64,000 nucleotides of DNA, taken from positions 4,278,001-4,342,000 of the forward strand of contig NZ_CP088156.1 in assembly GCF_021088345.1 (NCBI RefSeq), in the 5' to 3' direction. The DNA is from Bradyrhizobium ontarionense (GTDB taxonomy: Bacteria; Pseudomonadota; Alphaproteobacteria; Rhizobiales; Xanthobacteraceae). Positions 4,243-14,590 of the stretch are shown in pieces. Each line of letters starts with the position of its first letter. Position 1 is the first letter of the stretch. The translations under genes and the position numbers were made by a program. The notes below the pieces were generated by a model. The model ran no database searches. It worked only from the letters and a program-made list of their open reading frames with translations, and was not told the origin of the DNA.

Positions 4243-4656
4243 TCAGTAGCCGTCGGCCGGGCAATTGATCATCCAGGGAATCCCGAAGCGATCGACGCCC
4301 ATGCCGAAGCCCTTGGACCAGAACGTCTTGCCGAACGGCATGGTGACGCTGCCGCATTCGAGCAGCGCGTGGAACTTGCGCTCGGCCTCGACGACGTCCG
4401 TGATCTGAAGCGAGACCGAGATTCCGTGTGGCTTCCCTTGATAATATGCGGGCGGCGAATCGGAGGCCATGACGACATCACCTCCGATCGAGAAACGGAC
4501 GTGCATGATCCTGTCCTTGTGCTCCGGTGCAGAAGGCATCTCCGGCGGAGCCTCGCCGTAGCGCATCATCATGTCGATCTTGGCGCCGAGCGCGTCGCCG
4601 TAGTGCTTGAGAGCCTGCTCGCAGTCGCCGTTGAAGGTGAGATAGGGACAGATCAT
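4243..4656 (-). CDS. VOC superfamily protein, PhnB/glyoxalase-like
   Basis: 137 residues. Starts MICPYLTFNGDCEQALKHY, the signature opening of PhnB-like VOC proteins (also annotated as 3-demethylubiquinone-9 methyltransferase-like), and ends FGMGVDRFGIPWMINC. One betaalphabetabetabeta repeat is seen at each end. ATG at 4656 has GGAGGAAG upstream. It is the last gene of the ECF42 module (YCII, sigma, DoxX, this gene), 30 bases after the DoxX gene stop, so probably co-transcribed with it. Such proteins often accompany ECF42 and DGPF genes. Substrate unknown. Confidence 0.85.
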   Translation of the reverse strand: MICPYLTFNGDCEQALKHYGDALGAKIDMMMRYGEAPPEMPSAPEHKDRIMHVRFSIGGDVVMASDSPPAYYQGKPHGISVSLQITDVVEAERKFHALLECGSVTMPFGKTFWSKGFGMGVDRFGIPWMINCPADGY

Positions 4657-4686
4657 CGCTTCCTCCTTGGTTGAAAAGGTCATGCG

Positions 4687-5100
4687 TCAGCGGAGCTGCG
4701 GCAGCAGCGCGCGCAGGCGGCGGTCGCGCAGCCACAAGCCGCCCCACACCATCAGCCCGAGATAGAGGCCGAACAGCACGTGGCTGAACAACGGACTGCC
4801 GATGCGGACATGCGACGCGATGGCGCCGCCGAGATAGCCGGTGAGCAGGATCGCACCGACGAAGGACGTCGGCGGAAACGCATAGAGCACGGTGCAGAGA
4901 AGCGTGATGAGGCCGAGCGCGCGCGCCGTGGAATCACTCGCGCCGTAGCCTATCTGGTCCAGGGTCTGAGTGACGACGCCGAGTGGAACGAGCTTGATCG
5001 CGCCATCGAACACCAGGAACAGGGTCACCAGCCCGCTCAGGGCGCGACCGCTCCACAATTCGGCGCGCGAGACCGGCGCATCCAACGTGACCATCGACAT
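4687..5100 (-). CDS. DoxX-like four-helix membrane protein
   Basis: 137 residues with four predicted membrane segments: ALSGLVTLFLVFDGAIKLV (about 19-38), LGLITLLCTVLYAF, FVGAILLTGYLGGAIASHV and HVLFGLYLGLMVWGGLWL. The FDGAIKL in helix 1 and GYLGGAIASHVR in helix 3 are typical of the DoxX-like family. The ATG at 5100 has GAGGAG 8 bases upstream. It sits directly after the ECF sigma gene and has its own candidate ECF promoter at 5132-5158, which marks it as a likely regulon member. Biochemical role unknown; DoxX relatives are linked to thiol or oxidative stress. Confidence 0.8.
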   Translation of the reverse strand: MSMVTLDAPVSRAELWSGRALSGLVTLFLVFDGAIKLVPLGVVTQTLDQIGYGASDSTARALGLITLLCTVLYAFPPTSFVGAILLTGYLGGAIASHVRIGSPLFSHVLFGLYLGLMVWGGLWLRDRRLRALLPQLR

Positions 5101-5131
5101 CTCCAACTCCTCTTCGTGATGCTGCTCCAAG

Positions 5132-5158
5132 GACGAACGAAGGATCACGCAGCCGACA
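5132..5158 (-). promoter_or_regulatory. Candidate ECF42-dependent promoter (TGTCGG-N17-CGTC) for DoxX-VOC genes
   Basis: Read on the minus strand: TGTCGG at 5158-5153, 17 bases, then CGTC at 5135-5132, 31 bases before the DoxX ATG. The same hexamer, spacing and CGTC occur upstream of the YCII gene at 6907-6881. ECF42 promoters described in Streptomyces have TGTCGA at -35 and CGA/TC at -10, so one base differs in the -35. Confidence 0.65.
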
Positions 5159-5217
5159 GCAGTGCTAAAAATTCCGGGCCGATCGTCGGCCGTGGCCCGA
5201 GCGCATCGGGCCACGGT

Positions 5218-6489
5218 TCATCGTCCCGCCTGGGCCGTCGCCGTCGCACCGTCCCGCATCAGACGGTCGAGCTGCATACGGATGTGCGCGGCCTCCGCCG
5301 AGCTGTGCGCCAGCGCGATGGCACGGTCAAAGGCTGTGCGCGCCTCGTCATTGCGCCCGAGCTGCATCAGCAGCGCGCCACGCACGCCGAAGAAATAGAA
5401 GTAGTTGGCGAGCCGCGTCTCCAGCGGCGCGATCATGTCGAGCGCCGCCTGCGCACCTCTGACCTTGGAGGTCGCCACGGCGCGGTTGAGCGTCACGACC
5501 GGCGAGGGCTGCACGACTTCGAGCGCGCCATAGAGCAGGTCGATCTGCGTCCAATCGGTGTCCTCAGGCCGAGCGGCACGCGCATGCAGCGCCGCGATCG
5601 CCGCCTGGATCTGGTAGGGCCCGCTGCGGCGATGGCGCATCGCCTTGTCGATCAGCGCAAGCCCCTCCGCGATCATCGGCTCGTTCCAGAGCGAGCGATC
5701 CTGATCTTCCAGGAGGATTAGCGATCCCTCGGCATCGAAGCGCGCCGCGATCCGTGCATGCTGCAGCAGGAGCAGCGCCGTCAGCCCCATGATCTCCGGT
5801 TCGCCCGGGAACAGCCGCAGCAGCAGCCGCGCCAGCCGGATCGCCTCCTCCGACAGCGGCTTGCGCAGCTCGGCGGTCTCGCCGCTGGCCGAATAGCCCT
5901 CGTTGAAGATCAGATAGATCATGGCGGCGACCGCCACCAGGCGCTCGGAGCGCTCGACCGCGCCCGGGGTCTCGAACGGCACGTCGGCCTGCGCGACGCG
6001 TGCCTTGGCGCGCGTGATGCGCTGCTCCATCGCGGCCTCGCTGACCAGGAAGGCGCGCGAGATCTGCTTCACCGTCAGCCCGGAGACCACGCGCAGCGCC
6101 AGTGCGATCTGCTGCGTCGCCGGCAGTTCCTTGTGGCAGCAGATGAACAACAGCCTGAGGATGTCGTCGCGATAATGCGAGCCGTCGAGCCGGTCGGCGA
6201 GTGCGCTCTCGGCATCATCGAGATCGGAGATGGCTTCGTCGTCCGGGAGCGGCTGCTCGCGGCGGCCGCGCCGGACATCGTCGATCGCGGCGTTGCGGCC
6301 GACCATGATCAGCCACGCCGCGGGATCCCGCGGCGGCCCGTTCTGCGGCCAGCTCTTCAGCGCACGCAGGCAGGCGTTCTGGAACGCCTCCTCGGCCGTG
6401 TCGAGATCGCGGAAATAGCGCAGCAGCGCGCCGACGGCCTGGGGACGCGCTGATGTCAGGGCCGCATCGATCCAGGCCGCATCTGTCAT
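5218..6489 (-). CDS. RNA polymerase ECF sigma factor, ECF42 group (C-terminal TPR-like extension)
   Basis: 423 residues, more than twice a minimal ECF sigma. Region 2 is at about 10-85 (DLDTAEEAFQNACLRALKSW, then WLIMVGRNAAIDDVRR), region 4 at about 115-170 (LPATQQIALALRVVSGLTVK, SEAAMEQRITRAKARV). The long C-terminal extension (from about 185) contains YLIFNEGYSASG, the DUF6596 motif, and helical TPR-like repeats ending RNDEARTAFDRAIAL. This is the ECF42 layout, in which the extension is needed for activity and no anti-sigma factor is found; none is seen here. The start overlaps the YCII stop by 4 bases (ATGA), so the two are translationally coupled. An upstream in-frame start at 6603 would lie within the YCII gene and is rejected. 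Confidence 0.92.
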   Translation of the reverse strand: MTDAAWIDAALTSARPQAVGALLRYFRDLDTAEEAFQNACLRALKSWPQNGPPRDPAAWLIMVGRNAAIDDVRRGRREQPLPDDEAISDLDDAESALADRLDGSHYRDDILRLLFICCHKELPATQQIALALRVVSGLTVKQISRAFLVSEAAMEQRITRAKARVAQADVPFETPGAVERSERLVAVAAMIYLIFNEGYSASGETAELRKPLSEEAIRLARLLLRLFPGEPEIMGLTALLLLQHARIAARFDAEGSLILLEDQDRSLWNEPMIAEGLALIDKAMRHRRSGPYQIQAAIAALHARAARPEDTDWTQIDLLYGALEVVQPSPVVTLNRAVATSKVRGAQAALDMIAPLETRLANYFYFFGVRGALLMQLGRNDEARTAFDRAIALAHSSAEAAHIRMQLDRLMRDGATATAQAGR

Positions 6490-6854
6490 GCCAGCGCTCC
6501 GCCGGGCCTGAACGTACCGACGGGACGGATCTCGTAGGAGCCGCCCGGATTGGCCTCGCCGAGTTCGCGCGCGACCTCGACCGCCTCGTCGAGATTGTTG
6601 CAATCGACGAGATAGAAGCCGAGCAACTGCTCCTTGGTCTCGGCATAGGGACCATCGACCACCAACGGCGGATCGTCCTTGCGCAGGGTCGTGGCGGCCG
6701 TGGTCGGCAGCAGCCGGGCCACCGGTCCGAGCCGTCCCTGCTTGGCAAGCTTCTCCTGCACGACGGCAAGCTTGGCCATGACCGCTTCATCCTGGTCCTT
6801 GCTCCAGGAGCAGACGAAATCCTCGTCGTGATAGCAAAGCAGCGCGTACAGCAT
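6486..6854 (-). CDS. YCII-related (DGPF domain) protein
   Basis: 122 residues. MLYALLCYHDED start, then LVVDGPYAETKEQLLGFYLVD (residues about 60-80) with the DGPF/DGPY motif, and ending EIRPVGTFRPGG. The fold is YciI-like, a ferredoxin-like alpha/beta sandwich; enzymatic activity is not established for most members. DGPF proteins are the signature partners and targets of ECF42 sigma factors, and here the gene overlaps the sigma gene by 4 bases. ATG at 6854 is preceded by a candidate ECF promoter at 6881-6907 that leaves an untranslated leader of about 20 bases. Confidence 0.9.
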   Translation of the reverse strand: MLYALLCYHDEDFVCSWSKDQDEAVMAKLAVVQEKLAKQGRLGPVARLLPTTAATTLRKDDPPLVVDGPYAETKEQLLGFYLVDCNNLDEAVEVARELGEANPGGSYEIRPVGTFRPGGALA

Positions 6855-6880
6855 CGGAACACATCTCCATCCATCATCAA

Positions 6881-6907
6881 GACGGCGGAGTATGCCTTCG
6901 GCCGACA
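6881..6907 (-). promoter_or_regulatory. Candidate ECF42-dependent promoter (TGTCGG-N17-CGTC) for the YCII-sigma operon
   Basis: On the minus strand, TGTCGG (6907-6902), a 17-base spacer, and CGTC (6884-6881), 27 bases before the YCII ATG. It matches the site at 5132-5158 in hexamer, spacing and -10. This implies positive autoregulation of the sigma factor, as is usual for ECF42. Confidence 0.65.
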
Positions 6908-9775: not shown

Positions 9776-9837
9776 GCCGCCCCCTGCTTGACCGAAGCGA
9801 TTGCAGGTTGCAATCCTCGGTCCAACCAGGGGGCTGC
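9776..9837 (+). promoter_or_regulatory. Long hairpin that encloses the Shine-Dalgarno of the large helicase gene
   Basis: A 62-base imperfect inverted repeat. Outer stem GCxGCCCCCTG (9776-9786) pairs with CAGGGGGCxGC (9827-9837), then TTG and ACCGA pair with TCGGT and CAA, and GATTGC (9799-9804) pairs with GCAATC (9810-9815) round an AGGTT loop: about 24 pairs. AGGGGG at 9828-9833, the Shine-Dalgarno for the TTG at 9839, lies wholly in the stem. Only three T follow, so it is a poor terminator. RBS masking is an inference from base pairing. Confidence 0.6.
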
Positions 9838-9838
9838 T

Positions 9839-12800
9839 TTGCAAGGGACATCCGTACGAGACCGATTGCTGGCGGACCGACGCACGCTGCTCGACCTGGG
9901 CACGCGGAACCGGCTCGTGCACCTTCCGCTCAAGACCAAGAACGTCCGCACCGTCGAGATCGTCGGCGACCGCTCTGCCCGAGTCTTCGAGTTGCTGGGC
10001 GAAGGCAAGCGCTTCACGTTTCTAGCGGCGGCGATCGAGGACGAGCCATCGCTCCCGCTGGAACCGAAGGAGGGCCGCCCGCGACGAGCGCGTCCTTCCG
10101 AGCATGACGACGATGCCGCAGCGCCGGCGCGGCAGCCAGACACGCGGCTGCAGACGAAGCTGGTCAATGAGGCGCTGCAAAAGCGGCTCCTGGATATCTG
10201 GTACGATGCCAGAACCCTGGAAGAAGAACAGGGCGTCAATATTCTCTATCTCGCCTTCGGACTGCTCAAATGGTTCGAGGACGATAAATCGGACGTCGAG
10301 CGCATTGCGCCGCTGATCCTCCTGCCCGTTCGTCTCGAACGCAACAGCGCCGCCGACCGCTTCCATCTCGTCTCGCGCGCCGAGCCGCCTTCTCCCAATC
10401 TCTCCCTCCAGGCGAAGCTCGACGCCGAATTCGGATTGAAGGTCGAGGACTTCGGCGACGAGGACGATGTCGATCTTGCCGCCTATATGAGCGGAATTGC
10501 CGACACCGTCGCCGGCAAGACGCGCTGGACGGTGAACCCGGACGCGATGGTGCTCGGGTTCTTCTCGTTCTCCAAGTTCCTGATGTATCGCGATCTGGAT
10601 CCCGAGAACTGGCCCGCGGATGGCGGCCTCGACCAGCATCCGCTGATCGCAGCGCTGCTACAGGACGGTTTCGAGGGATCCGAGCCGATTGTGGCCGACG
10701 ACGGCAAGATCGACGCTGTGATTCAGCCGATCGCGATGAACCACGTCGTCGATGCCGATTCGTCACAGGCCGTGGTGATCGAGGAAGTGGTCCGGGGACG
10801 CGACCTCGTCGTCAAGGGACCACCGGGCACCGGCAAGTCGCAGACCATCACCAACATCATCGCGTCAGCTGCAGCCGAGGGGAAAACCGTGCTCTTCGTC
10901 GCTGAGAAGATGGCGGCGCTGGACGTCGTGCATCGTCGGCTGAAAGACGTCGGTCTCGGTTCGCTCGCACTCGAGCTGCATTCGAACAAGGCGAACAAGC
11001 GCGTTCTGCTCGAGGAGCTGAGGCGCTGCAAATCGGCTGCGATCCCTGCACCTCGCGGCGATGCGACGCTGGTGCAGCGCCTGACCGAGAGCCGCGACAG
11101 CCTCAATCGGCACGCTGAAATGATGCATCAGCCGCATCAACCGAGCCAACTGACGCCGTTCAGGCTGCTCGGCCATCTCGTGCGTTGCTGGGAGGCGTCG
11201 ACGCGACCAGCTCTCCCATTGCTGGGCGCGCCATCATGGTCTCCTTTGGACCTGGAACGGCGCCGAGAGCTGGTTGCAGAGCTGGCCGCGCGGATTGCAT
11301 CAGACGGACCGCCTCACCTCCATCCGTGGCGCGGTGTCGGCCGGGAGGCGCTCGATCCTGCCGAAATGGCCGAGCTGCAGAAATCCATGGACAGCGTCTC
11401 GCAGGCCCTCACCCGTGTCTCAACAGGCGCAGCCAAAGTGAGCGGCCTGTTCGACCTGCCGGCGCCCGCAACCCTTGGCGGCGCAACCGACATCCTGGCC
11501 TTCGCGGAAGCGGCTGCCGCGATGCCGGACTGCGACCGGGCTGCATTTCGCGATCCGATCTGGAGCCGCGGTGCCGAGGTCGCCGACATCATCGACAAGG
11601 GACTCCGCTACTCGAAACTGAAAGCGGCTTTCGAATCCGCGTTCGTGGATTCCGCCTGGGATGCATCGGTCGCCGAATGCCGCAAAGTGATCGCGGAGAA
11701 AGGCCGCTCCTGGTTGCGCATGCTGAGCTCGCGCTATCGCGAGCAGATGGCGCTGCTGAACTCCTACCTGAAAGTGCCGATGCCGAAATCGCTCGAGCAG
11801 CGGCTTTTGCTGATCGACGGGCTCATGGCCGCGCAAGCCGCGCGCCGATCCTTCGATGACGTCCAGGCCGCAGGCAGCACAGCCTTCGGAACCTCATGGC
11901 AAAAGGACCAGTCGGATTGGGAGTTACTTTCGAGGTTCACGGGCTGGTGGGGAGCCTTTCCGAAACAGTTTGCGGACGATGCGACGCGGGAGCGTCTGAC
12001 GCGTTTGACGCTGTCGGCAGACGATCGACAATCGATCGAACGATTGAAAAGCGATCTCGCGAGCACGAAATCCGGTCTGCAGCGGCTCATCGACTTTCTG
12101 CATCTCGAACCTAGCCGCATTCCGCTCGACACCGGCAATCGGATTCGGTTCGGCGAACTGTTGCAGACCCTGTCGGAGTGGCGGAATTCGACCGAGCGCC
12201 TCACCCGCTGGATCGCGTTCATGGAACGGGTCCGCCTCGCACGCGCGGATGGTCTCGCGGCACTGGTCGATGTCGCACTCGACGGCTCGCTGCCGGACAG
12301 CGCGCTGGAAGAGACGTTCGACAGGTCCTATTACGAAGCCATGCGCAGCGTGATCTTCGCTGACCATCCGGAGCTGAAGCGCTTCGATGGAGAGTCGCAT
12401 AGCCGGCTCGTCGAAGGATTCTGTAAACTCGATATCGAGCGCATGCGGCTGGCCCGCGACCAGATCGCCCATGAGCATGCCTCGGCGCTGCCACGCAACG
12501 GCGGCGGCATCGGCCCGCTCGGCGTCCTGAACGGCGAGCTCGCCAAGAAGCGCAATCATCTGCCGATCCGCCAGCTTCTGGAGCGCGCCGGCCCCGTCAT
12601 CCAGCAGATCAAGCCGATCTTCCTGATGAGCCCGTTGTCGGTGGCCCAGTTCCTCAAGCCCGGCGCCATCGCCTTCGATCTGCTCGTCGTCGATGAGGCC
12701 TCGCAGATCGAGCCGGTCGATGCGCTCGGCGCCGTCGCGCGCTGCAGGCAGATGGTGGTGGTCGGCGACGAGCGCCAATTGCCGCCGACGCGCTTCTTTG

Positions 12801-14590
12801 CGAAGTTGACGGGCAACGACGACGACGGCGATGACGAAGACCAGCCGACCTTTCAGGTCAAGGATGCCGAAAGCATTCTCGACCTCTGTCTGGCCAAGGG
12901 CGTCCCGCATCGGATGCTCAACTGGCACTACCGCAGCAAGCACCAGTCGCTGATCGCCGTCTCCAACAAGCAGTTCTACGACAACCGGCTGTTCATCGTG
13001 CCGAGCCCGTATGACGCGGTCGCCGGCATGGGACTGAAATTCAACTACAACCCCGATGCGCATTATGATCGCGGCAACAGCCGCACCAATCCCCGGGAAG
13101 CACGACTCGTGGCCGAGGCGGTCATGCGCCATGCGCGCGAGACGCCGGAGCGGAGCCTCGGGGTCGCAACCTTTTCGGTGGCACAGCGTCAGGCGATCCA
13201 GGACGAGCTCGAACTGCTGCGCAAGGAGCGGCCGGAGACCGAGGACTTCTTCGTGCGCGGCACGAGCGAGCCGTTCTTCGTCAAGAACCTCGAGAACATC
13301 CAGGGCGACGAGCGCGACGTCATCTTCATCTCCATGGGATATGGACGAACCAAGGACGGCTTCGTGTCGATGAGCTTCGGCCCTCTCAACTCCGACGGGG
13401 GAGAACGCCGCCTGAACGTCCTGATCTCGCGCGCGAAGCTCCGATGCGAGGTGTTTTCCTCGATCACCGGCGACGACATCGATCTGTCGCGCGCCAAGGG
13501 CCGAGGCATCGCGGCGCTCAAGACGTTCCTGACCTTCGCGCAGACCGGACAGCTCGGCATCGCGCAGGAAACCGGGCGGGATCCGGATTCCATCTTCGAG
13601 GAGCAGGTCGCAGCACGGCTGCGAGCGCTCGGCCACGACGTCAAGACCCAGATCGGCACAGCCGGTTTCTTCGTCGACCTCGCCGTCGTCGATCCCGACA
13701 AGCCCGGCCGCTTTCTGCTCGGCATCGAATGCGATGGCGCCCCATATCACGCGTCACGCTCCGCGCGAGACCGCGATCGCCTCAGACAGAACGTCCTTGA
13801 GGCGCATGGCTGGGTGCTGCATCGCATCTGGTCGACGGACTGGTTTCTGCGGCCCAAGGAGGAAACCGATAAGGTCGTCCGTGCGATCGAGGAGGCGAAG
13901 ATGCACTGGCGGGAGGTCGACGAAGGCGCGGTCGCAGCGCCTCCTGAACCTCCAGAACGGAGCGATGCGCCCGCACAGGAGGAGACCATAGGCAGCACCG
14001 CAGCGGTAGCCCCGCAGGCGCCGACGGTGGTCGCTTACGAGGAAGCCAAACTGCGCGTGCGCCGGGAGATCGAGCCGCACGAGACCTCGCTTGCCGACAT
14101 GACGCGGCACATCGTCGAGATCGTCACGGTCGAAGGCCCCATCCATGAATCGGAGATCATCGTCCGGATCAGATCGTCGTGGGGCCTCGCCCGCGCCGGC
14201 AACCGCATTCGCGACGCGGTGCGGGCGGCGCTGACATCCGCCGCTGCGAAGGGACAAATCTCGGGAGGCCCGTTCTACGCCGTCCCCGGCCAGACTCTGG
14301 CCGTGCGAAGCCGTGAGAACGTGCAATCGCAGACGCTGCGGAAGCCCGAGATGCTGCCGCCGGAAGAAATCAAGATCGCGATGATTCGGGTGGTGGAGCA
14401 GAACTACGGCGCCGAGGAGGACCAGTTGATCCAGGCGGTCGCCCGCCTGTTCGGCTTCGGAGCGACGAGCGCGCAGTTGCGCGAAGCCGTTCGGGGCTGC
14501 CTCACCGAGCTCCTCGACGATGGCCTGCTGCGCCGGGAGGGAGAACTGGTCACCAAGCCTCAGGAAGCGCCGCTCGCCGACGGCCTGTGA
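9839..14590 (+). CDS. Large DUF4011-SF1 helicase-Vsr-like nuclease-DUF3320 protein (Hhe-type antiphage candidate)
   Basis: About 1583 residues. The N-terminal DUF4011 region opens RTLLDLGTRNRLVHL (about 12-30). The SF1/UPF1-like helicase has Walker A GPPGTGKSQT (about 326), Walker B VVDEASQIEP (about 950), GDERQLPPT (about 974), NIQGDERDVIFIS (about 1151) and RRLNVLISRAK (about 1189). A Vsr/MTES_1575-like nuclease follows at about 1255-1350 with FFVDLAV, IECDGAPYH and HRIWSTDWF. A DUF3320-like winged region lies at about 1415-1475, with a further helical repeat to the end. DUF4011-helicase-Vsr proteins were reported as single-gene phage defence (hhe). Start: TTG at 9839 with AGGGGG 5 bases upstream; TTG 9788 is in frame but has no ribosome site. 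No partner methylase adjoins. Defence role inferred from architecture. Confidence 0.85.
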   Translation: MQGTSVRDRLLADRRTLLDLGTRNRLVHLPLKTKNVRTVEIVGDRSARVFELLGEGKRFTFLAAAIEDEPSLPLEPKEGRPRRARPSEHDDDAAAPARQPDTRLQTKLVNEALQKRLLDIWYDARTLEEEQGVNILYLAFGLLKWFEDDKSDVERIAPLILLPVRLERNSAADRFHLVSRAEPPSPNLSLQAKLDAEFGLKVEDFGDEDDVDLAAYMSGIADTVAGKTRWTVNPDAMVLGFFSFSKFLMYRDLDPENWPADGGLDQHPLIAALLQDGFEGSEPIVADDGKIDAVIQPIAMNHVVDADSSQAVVIEEVVRGRDLVVKGPPGTGKSQTITNIIASAAAEGKTVLFVAEKMAALDVVHRRLKDVGLGSLALELHSNKANKRVLLEELRRCKSAAIPAPRGDATLVQRLTESRDSLNRHAEMMHQPHQPSQLTPFRLLGHLVRCWEASTRPALPLLGAPSWSPLDLERRRELVAELAARIASDGPPHLHPWRGVGREALDPAEMAELQKSMDSVSQALTRVSTGAAKVSGLFDLPAPATLGGATDILAFAEAAAAMPDCDRAAFRDPIWSRGAEVADIIDKGLRYSKLKAAFESAFVDSAWDASVAECRKVIAEKGRSWLRMLSSRYREQMALLNSYLKVPMPKSLEQRLLLIDGLMAAQAARRSFDDVQAAGSTAFGTSWQKDQSDWELLSRFTGWWGAFPKQFADDATRERLTRLTLSADDRQSIERLKSDLASTKSGLQRLIDFLHLEPSRIPLDTGNRIRFGELLQTLSEWRNSTERLTRWIAFMERVRLARADGLAALVDVALDGSLPDSALEETFDRSYYEAMRSVIFADHPELKRFDGESHSRLVEGFCKLDIERMRLARDQIAHEHASALPRNGGGIGPLGVLNGELAKKRNHLPIRQLLERAGPVIQQIKPIFLMSPLSVAQFLKPGAIAFDLLVVDEASQIEPVDALGAVARCRQMVVVGDERQLPPTRFFAKLTGNDDDGDDEDQPTFQVKDAESILDLCLAKGVPHRMLNWHYRSKHQSLIAVSNKQFYDNRLFIVPSPYDAVAGMGLKFNYNPDAHYDRGNSRTNPREARLVAEAVMRHARETPERSLGVATFSVAQRQAIQDELELLRKERPETEDFFVRGTSEPFFVKNLENIQGDERDVIFISMGYGRTKDGFVSMSFGPLNSDGGERRLNVLISRAKLRCEVFSSITGDDIDLSRAKGRGIAALKTFLTFAQTGQLGIAQETGRDPDSIFEEQVAARLRALGHDVKTQIGTAGFFVDLAVVDPDKPGRFLLGIECDGAPYHASRSARDRDRLRQNVLEAHGWVLHRIWSTDWFLRPKEETDKVVRAIEEAKMHWREVDEGAVAAPPEPPERSDAPAQEETIGSTAAVAPQAPTVVAYEEAKLRVRREIEPHETSLADMTRHIVEIVTVEGPIHESEIIVRIRSSWGLARAGNRIRDAVRAALTSAAAKGQISGGPFYAVPGQTLAVRSRENVQSQTLRKPEMLPPEEIKIAMIRVVEQNYGAEEDQLIQAVARLFGFGATSAQLREAVRGCLTELLDDGLLRREGELVTKPQEAPLADGL

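Follow-up and report, generated by a model that had tools for sequence, protein, structure and literature searches.

TGTCGG-N17-CGTC promoter-like sites of a Bradyrhizobium ECF42 sigma factor and a candidate residue for -35 recognition

The ECF42 group of extracytoplasmic function (ECF) sigma factors is widespread and its role is poorly known. Here we describe an ECF42 sigma gene, its YCII-domain partner gene and the promoter-like motif TGTCGG-N17-CGTC (N17, a 17-base spacer) in a stretch of Bradyrhizobium DNA, hereafter the window, which comprises 64,000 nucleotides (positions 4278001-4342000 of C1, the one contig of the 8.44 Mb genome G000). The ECF42 sigma factors of Streptomyces venezuelae reportedly target DGPF genes, and their promoters are said to carry TGTCGA at -35, unlike the TGTCGG of the window. 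Three of these proteins, Sven_0747, Sven_4377 and Sven_7131, share the ECF42 architecture with the window sigma (PMC8999054). In Sinorhizobium meliloti, the promoters before SMb20475, SMc01151 (a YCII gene) and SMc01149 hold TGTCGG-N17-CGTC, and overexpression of the ECF42 sigma RpoE10 (SMc01150) raised SMc01149-48 and SMb20475-74, sigma-directed transcription from the motif being supported for two operons (PMC6180224). The S. meliloti orthologue is 73% identical to the window sigma. From the data presented below we consider it probable that the window sigma, a clade-A ECF42 with a YCII partner, drives TGTCGG-N17-(T)CGTC(n)T promoters and is told from its sister ECF42s mainly by the last -35 base, via residue Glu155.

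Anatomy and conservation of the YCII-sigma locus

The sigma gene (5218..6489, minus strand, as are the other features of this locus) encodes a 423 aa protein with Pfam matches PF20239, PF04542 and PF08281, 95% identical to its counterpart in Bradyrhizobium sp. BTAi1. Sigma2 (PF04542) lies at residues 15-77 and sigma4 (PF08281) at 114-164, with no sigma3 family among the Pfam matches, while the C-terminal extension displays DUF6596 at 183-284, above cut-off, and TPR_1/TPR_2 at 370-395, below the Pfam cut-off. This is the make-up of an ECF42 sigma, a group marked by some 200 C-terminal residues with TPR repeats, and the ECF sigma with a long TPR-like C terminus proposed in the first-pass annotation of this DNA is borne out, the TPR matches remaining sub-cut-off. 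The YCII-domain (DGPF/YCII) gene lies directly upstream (6486..6854; PF03795, E 2e-20; ATG at 6854), and its stop (6488-6486) overlaps the sigma ATG (6489-6487) by 4 bases as ATGA. Downstream of the sigma gene lie a DoxX_2 family membrane protein gene (4687..5100; PF13564, E 5e-16; ATG at 5100) and, second in the DoxX unit, a VOC-fold (PhnB/YjdN-like) gene (4243..4656; PF06983, PF00903), the product of which matches Pfam 3-dmu-9_3-mt/Glyoxalase (VOC fold) and, below cut-off, NCBIfam YjdN. Reading and Pfam thus agree with the overlap and the gene order initially described. As in other ECF42 systems, no anti-sigma gene was recognised among the called genes around the sigma gene, five flanking genes having been scanned with Pfam (three of them without any family) and the others judged by reading, and a divergent anti-sigma gene could still be present.

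Direct reading also confirmed both promoter-like sites of the first-pass annotation. The site of the YCII-sigma operon (6881..6907) has TGTCGG at 6907-6902 and CGTC at 6884-6881, with 26 bases from CGTC to the YCII ATG, and that of the DoxX-VOC unit (5132..5158) has TGTCGG at 5158-5153 and CGTC at 5135-5132, with 31 bases from CGTC to the DoxX ATG. Both have the form of ECF42 promoters found before targets, TGTCG[A/G]-N17-CG[A/T]C. Both candidate start regions thus hold the motif, and a third match is present within the same 8.3 kb.

The conservation of the motif was assessed in related loci (the best 80 of 323, 1.21 Mb in total), with gene starts called by a simple purpose-made gene finder rather than a standard annotator. 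These loci hold 203 exact matches with spacer 17. For 184 of these a called start follows on the same strand at a distance of 10-150 bp; when the limit is set at 200 bp the number rises to 186, leaving 17 that are not near a start. At spacers of 12 to 16 bases the start-proximal matches number 0, 1, 2, 0 and 0, and at 18 to 22 bases 2, 0, 0, 1 and 0. A scrambled-letter control gave 29 matches, six of them start-proximal. Changes to the hexamer had a similar outcome: TGTCGA, TGTCGC and TGTCGT with N17-CGTC gave 4, 2 and 0 start-proximal matches, and eleven further altered hexamers 0-4 each. The possibility raised at the outset, that in relatives the motif might be no commoner upstream of genes than expected by chance, is not what we observed. 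Since these conservation figures rest on exact matches, the motif columns necessarily show no variation; the spacers do diverge, the 25 DoxX sites carrying 23 distinct spacers with a mean identity of 0.52, so that conservation of the motif is not mere recent copying. Besides, the slot right after the sigma gene retains the promoter while the gene behind it varies, being DoxX or SRPBCC, or SnoaL in two of the loci.

The 186 sites precede YCII genes (68), YCII-trio genes (36), membrane SRPBCC (Polyketide_cyc2) genes (30), DoxX2 genes (25), GST, RibD_C and SnoaL genes (7 each), VOC genes (5) and one other, target classes being assigned by BLAST to the proteins of the window genome or by sequence beginnings, with a Pfam check of five representatives of four classes and of the GST of the window genome. 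The 25 exact sites before DoxX2 genes compare with 34 DoxX2-type genes held by the 80 loci. The conserved promoter-like site before the DoxX unit supports DoxX and VOC as likely targets, as initially suggested.

A YCII-like frame is found directly upstream of the sigma gene in all 81 clade-A loci (the 80 and the window), and the motif before it is exact in 71 of them, at a median of 28 bases from the YCII start in related loci. The first-pass annotation had seen a self-amplifying module here. Two sets of data weigh against this. First, ten clade-A loci lack the exact YCII motif, nine being one base off and one two bases off: seven have CGTT at -10, two have TGTAGG at -35, and L086 departs from the motif at both elements. 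Second, in the cited account of S. meliloti the YCII gene SMc01151 was not raised by RpoE10 overexpression despite its motif, which its mapped start overlaps (PMC6180224). The YCII-sigma operon could, on these grounds, be run by another promoter, leaving DoxX, the YCII trio and scattered genes as the sole sigma targets; the retention of the exact motif in 71 of the 81 loci and its distance from the YCII start speak against this explanation, which we find doubtful, if worth keeping in mind. Since SMc01151 did not rise, self-amplification is not general, and for the window module self-amplifying behaviour is a prediction from sequence. The -10 element of the YCII-sigma promoter reads CGTT in clade-A loci L086, L089, L099, L102, L103, L118, L125 and L132. 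Each of these eight loci still has the exact motif ahead of one or more other genes, and CGTT in the YCII-sigma promoter is perhaps a sign of weakened autoregulation.

Parallel ECF42 groups and residue 155

Three groups of ECF42 sigma factors in Bradyrhizobium keep distinct predicted promoters: TGTCGG/CGTC in A, TGTCGT/CGAC in B and TGTCGA/CGTC in C. Paralogue B is the second ECF42 of the window genome (G000:7481131-7482375) and has its own YCII gene, the sigma gene, YCII gene and TGTCGT-N17-CGAC site together covering G000:7480681-7482375 (L065:8682-10376). For paralogue B and its orthologues (30 of the 59 loci found in 60 Bradyrhizobium genomes), all 30 loci carry TGTCGT-N17-CGAC ahead of YCII. 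In these promoters a stretch around TGGATGTC, just past the -10 element, is also well conserved. In its own genome TGTCGT-N17-CGAC has 13 matches versus 14 for the control, and we therefore claim no wider paralogue B regulon. For group C, defined by identity and represented by 20 of its loci (one of them in the tree described below), TGTCGA-N17-CGTC is present within 1 kb upstream of the sigma gene and a YCII-like frame lies upstream in all 20. The group C sigma was not found in the window genome, which holds only two DUF6596 sigmas.

In order to relate sigma sequence to promoter, columns of the sigma alignment were ranked by covariation with the sixth -35 base, using 45 sequences chosen to represent 202 loci whose labels had been assigned under a fixed rule. 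After shuffle correction residue 155 comes first of 423 columns; it had been picked on 152 labelled loci out of 159, seven class loci being without a clear label and three Glu155 loci being labelled from a downstream site. In the window it is encoded by GAG at 6025..6027 (minus strand) and sits in the -35 recognition helix (SEAAM-E-QRITRAK), where we propose that it reads the sixth -35 base. In sigmaE-type alignments, with the position read by eye, it corresponds to R171 of E. coli sigmaE and K170 of Bacillus subtilis SigW, which contact template base -31 (PMC6713349), and the equivalent R170 of Corynebacterium glutamicum sigmaD is likewise modelled at -31 (PMC11588781). The sixth -35 base would correspond to -31 in the SigW register (TGAAAC, with C at -31). 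There, Arg or Lys reads G at -31 in sigmaE and SigW, whereas Glu in the window sigma would read C.

The rule was then scored on 300 ECF42 loci (81 of group A, 30 of B, 20 of C, 28 from a class search, 113 from a phylum search and plasmids, and 28 from a family search); L447 and L472 had been removed as repeats, and many of the loci are close kin. For the plasmids, six of the 60 records listed among 138 with a match were fetched. We counted as an upstream site any exact TGTCGN-N17-CG[A/T]C whose end lies 300-1000 bp ahead of the sigma gene, and 225 of the 300 loci have one. With Glu155 the sixth base is G in 104 of 104 loci having such a site, and with other residues (121 loci) it is A in 86, T in 33, C in one and G in one. 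This lone G accompanies Gln155 (L343), while the sister locus L334 has Ala155 and TGTCGA. Loci fetched after residue 155 was chosen also obey the rule. In plasmid locus L443 (NZ_CP142111.1, Pseudomonas putida) the ECF42 gene is flanked by two copies of IS6100, close to sul1, and the record lists no YCII gene next to it, so that this ECF42 stands apart from its partner.

Several observations weigh against a residue-155 code. Raw mutual information puts columns 25 and 234 slightly above 155 (0.71 vs 0.68). The 75 loci lacking an exact site by the rule include 16 of the 120 with Glu155: ten Bradyrhizobium loci are one or two bases off, four (L183, L188, L205 and L415) have TGTCGG-N17-CGTC only downstream of the sigma gene, and two (L393 and L427) have no site at all. 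Locus L388 (Glu155) has an extra TGTCGA site after the sigma gene, L446 has Gln155 yet TGTCGA, and L208 (Ser155) has TGTCGG after the sigma gene; the genome of the latter also holds a Glu155 sigma (L197), and its two ECF42s may cross-regulate each other's promoters. Finally, on a quick tree of 55 rows built without column 155, Glu155 and G each change only twice, which leaves few independent events. As the second Glu155 (L427) is without a site, residue and base are seen together independently in clade A, with Glu, and in L343, with Gln.

These points leave room for an explanation in which the motifs are real and sigma-dependent while residue 155 is a mere clade marker, other clade residues setting the -35 preference: Glu155 is nearly confined to one clade, which columns 18, 25, 190 and 403, among others, also separate. 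We think this explanation unlikely, though by no means negligible, given that residue 155 leads after shuffle correction, that it matches the sigmaE/SigW contact to base -31 (PMC6713349), and that the separately arisen TGTCGG of L343 accompanies Gln155 next to a sister with Ala155 and TGTCGA, on a tree from which column 155 had been removed. The residue-155 code thus appears to be a testable prediction with about two independent origins behind it.

Residue 155 does not separate TGTCGT from TGTCGA sigmas, with Ala, Gly or Ser in both, and among the residues tracking the T/A difference at -10 the leading columns, 396, 15 and 134, include no obvious -10 reader. A broader proposal, to which we give even chances, is that the Bradyrhizobium ECF42s form insulated parallel circuits, two in this genome and three groups in the genus, with promoters set apart by the sixth base of the -35 element and the third of the -10 element. 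Residue 155 (Glu, once Gln, versus Ala, Gly or Ser) would read that -35 base on the template strand, a switch of one residue and one base that would have arisen at least twice and let the sigma family multiply without cross-talk. Literature searches on titles and abstract openings found neither the paralogue promoters nor the residue-155 rule, parts of which may be in print.

Candidate targets across the genome

The exact motif has 36 matches genome-wide, about 2 per Mb of strand, versus 23 for the reversed control. This count alone is weak, and conservation was used instead. Only seven of the 36 matches are followed, at about 27-130 bp, by a called start on the same strand; the genome scan initially suggested thus yielded start-proximal sites, with a total that is itself weak against the control. 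That the sites are chance matches in a GC-rich genome draws on this modest excess and on the 29 matches outside that range, and is made exceedingly improbable by the spacing-specific enrichment in the 80 loci and by the published S. meliloti promoters that share the motif (PMC6180224).

The seven start-proximal sites precede YCII-ECF42, DoxX-VOC, a YCII-like trio, a VOC gene (PF06983; VOC2), an AHSA1/SRPBCC gene, a DUF899 gene and the gene after ssb. The trio site (G000:4276659-4276633), the third of the locus, is found 1.34 kb to the left of the window, and with the three tandem genes behind it covers G000:4275321-4276659 (L064:11321-12659); genes one and two of the trio have a YCII match in Pfam and gene three has none. 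The motif also stands before GST and RibD_C genes in some relatives, while those beside the trio here are without it. The local regulon of the first-pass annotation holds for the YCII-sigma and DoxX-VOC sites and is too narrow, as candidates also lie outside the window and at a distance in the genome.

Of 23 Bradyrhizobium loci with the AHSA1 gene, 18 have the motif before it (at least 73% identity, own copy included; seven weak matches of the 30 loci, L264-L270, were left out), so that this gene is a well-supported candidate target of the window sigma. For VOC2 it is found in 13 of 30 loci, own copy included, a moderate case for this gene as a predicted target. Weighing against DUF899, its site occurs in one of 30 loci, that of this genome; the other 29 genes, at most 53% identical, are probably paralogues, and DUF899 is perhaps a target in this genome alone. 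Two matches were rejected. The one before the gene after ssb (L033) falls inside a 9-bp inverted repeat (CTTCCGTCC...GGACGGAAG), probably a terminator, and that at G000:4273794-4273820 falls inside a TetR-type gene. Elsewhere in the window, positions 9812-14590 (plus strand) encode a 1592 aa DUF4011/helicase/MTES_1575 nuclease/DUF3320 protein with a near full-length match to the PADLOC candidate defence family PDC-S37 and a partial one to Hhe.

Proposed mechanism and comparison with known ECF42 systems

We propose that sigma A would be activated at its C-terminal extension, a part reported to set activity in other ECF42s (PMC8999054, PMC9023288), and would bring RNA polymerase to TGTCGG-N17-CGTC before YCII-sigma, DoxX-VOC and scattered small-molecule-type genes, namely YCII, VOC, AHSA1/SRPBCC and perhaps DUF899 here, and SRPBCC, SnoaL, GST and RibD_C in relatives. 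Judging from the alignment, Arg160 would read G-35 as sigmaE R176 does, and Glu155 the template cytosine opposite G6. Sigma A would in this way be kept apart from the TGTCGT-N17-CGAC ECF42 of the same cell, and from the TGTCGA-N17-CGTC group in related species. The types of output (YCII, VOC, SRPBCC, SnoaL, GST, RibD_C and DoxX), together with the link of Pseudomonas putida ECF-10 to antibiotic and oxidative stress (PMC8999054, PMC6180224), suggest a defence against small toxic molecules; ECF-10 belongs to the same ECF42 group and has a similar gene neighbourhood (PMC8999054, PMC6180224). A regulon readable from sequence alone would thus point to a role in dealing with small molecules that are reactive or foreign. 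Should the residue-155 code be true, one ECF42 promoter feature would be predictable from the protein, and the ECF42s would offer a simple natural example of paralogous regulators staying apart.

The comparison with S. meliloti corrects two details of the first-pass annotation. The -35 element had been considered one base off the consensus; the RpoE10 promoters also carry TGTCGG (PMC6180224), which is therefore the norm of the clade of the window sigma. Transcription had been expected to start about 7 bases after CGTC; the mapped SMc01149 start lies 9 bases after it (PMC6180224), so starts in the window are predicted near 6872 and 5123. Like the window system, RpoE10 has an upstream YCII partner, a long TPR-type C terminus and TGTCGG-N17-CGTC promoters, and its targets include hydrophobic-ligand-binding (SRPBCC) and glyoxalase-like proteins, as does the predicted window regulon; the YCII gene of S. 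meliloti is reported as unresponsive to RpoE10 (PMC6180224). An S. meliloti plasmid record holds YCII, sigma, SRPBCC and NTF2/SnoaL-type genes, and TGTCGG stands both ahead of YCII and behind the sigma gene; the slot after the sigma gene is thus occupied by SRPBCC and NTF2/SnoaL-type genes in S. meliloti and by DoxX and VOC in the window. Altogether, with ECF -35 specificity at this position generally already known, the window system adds one more case to the ECF42 group.

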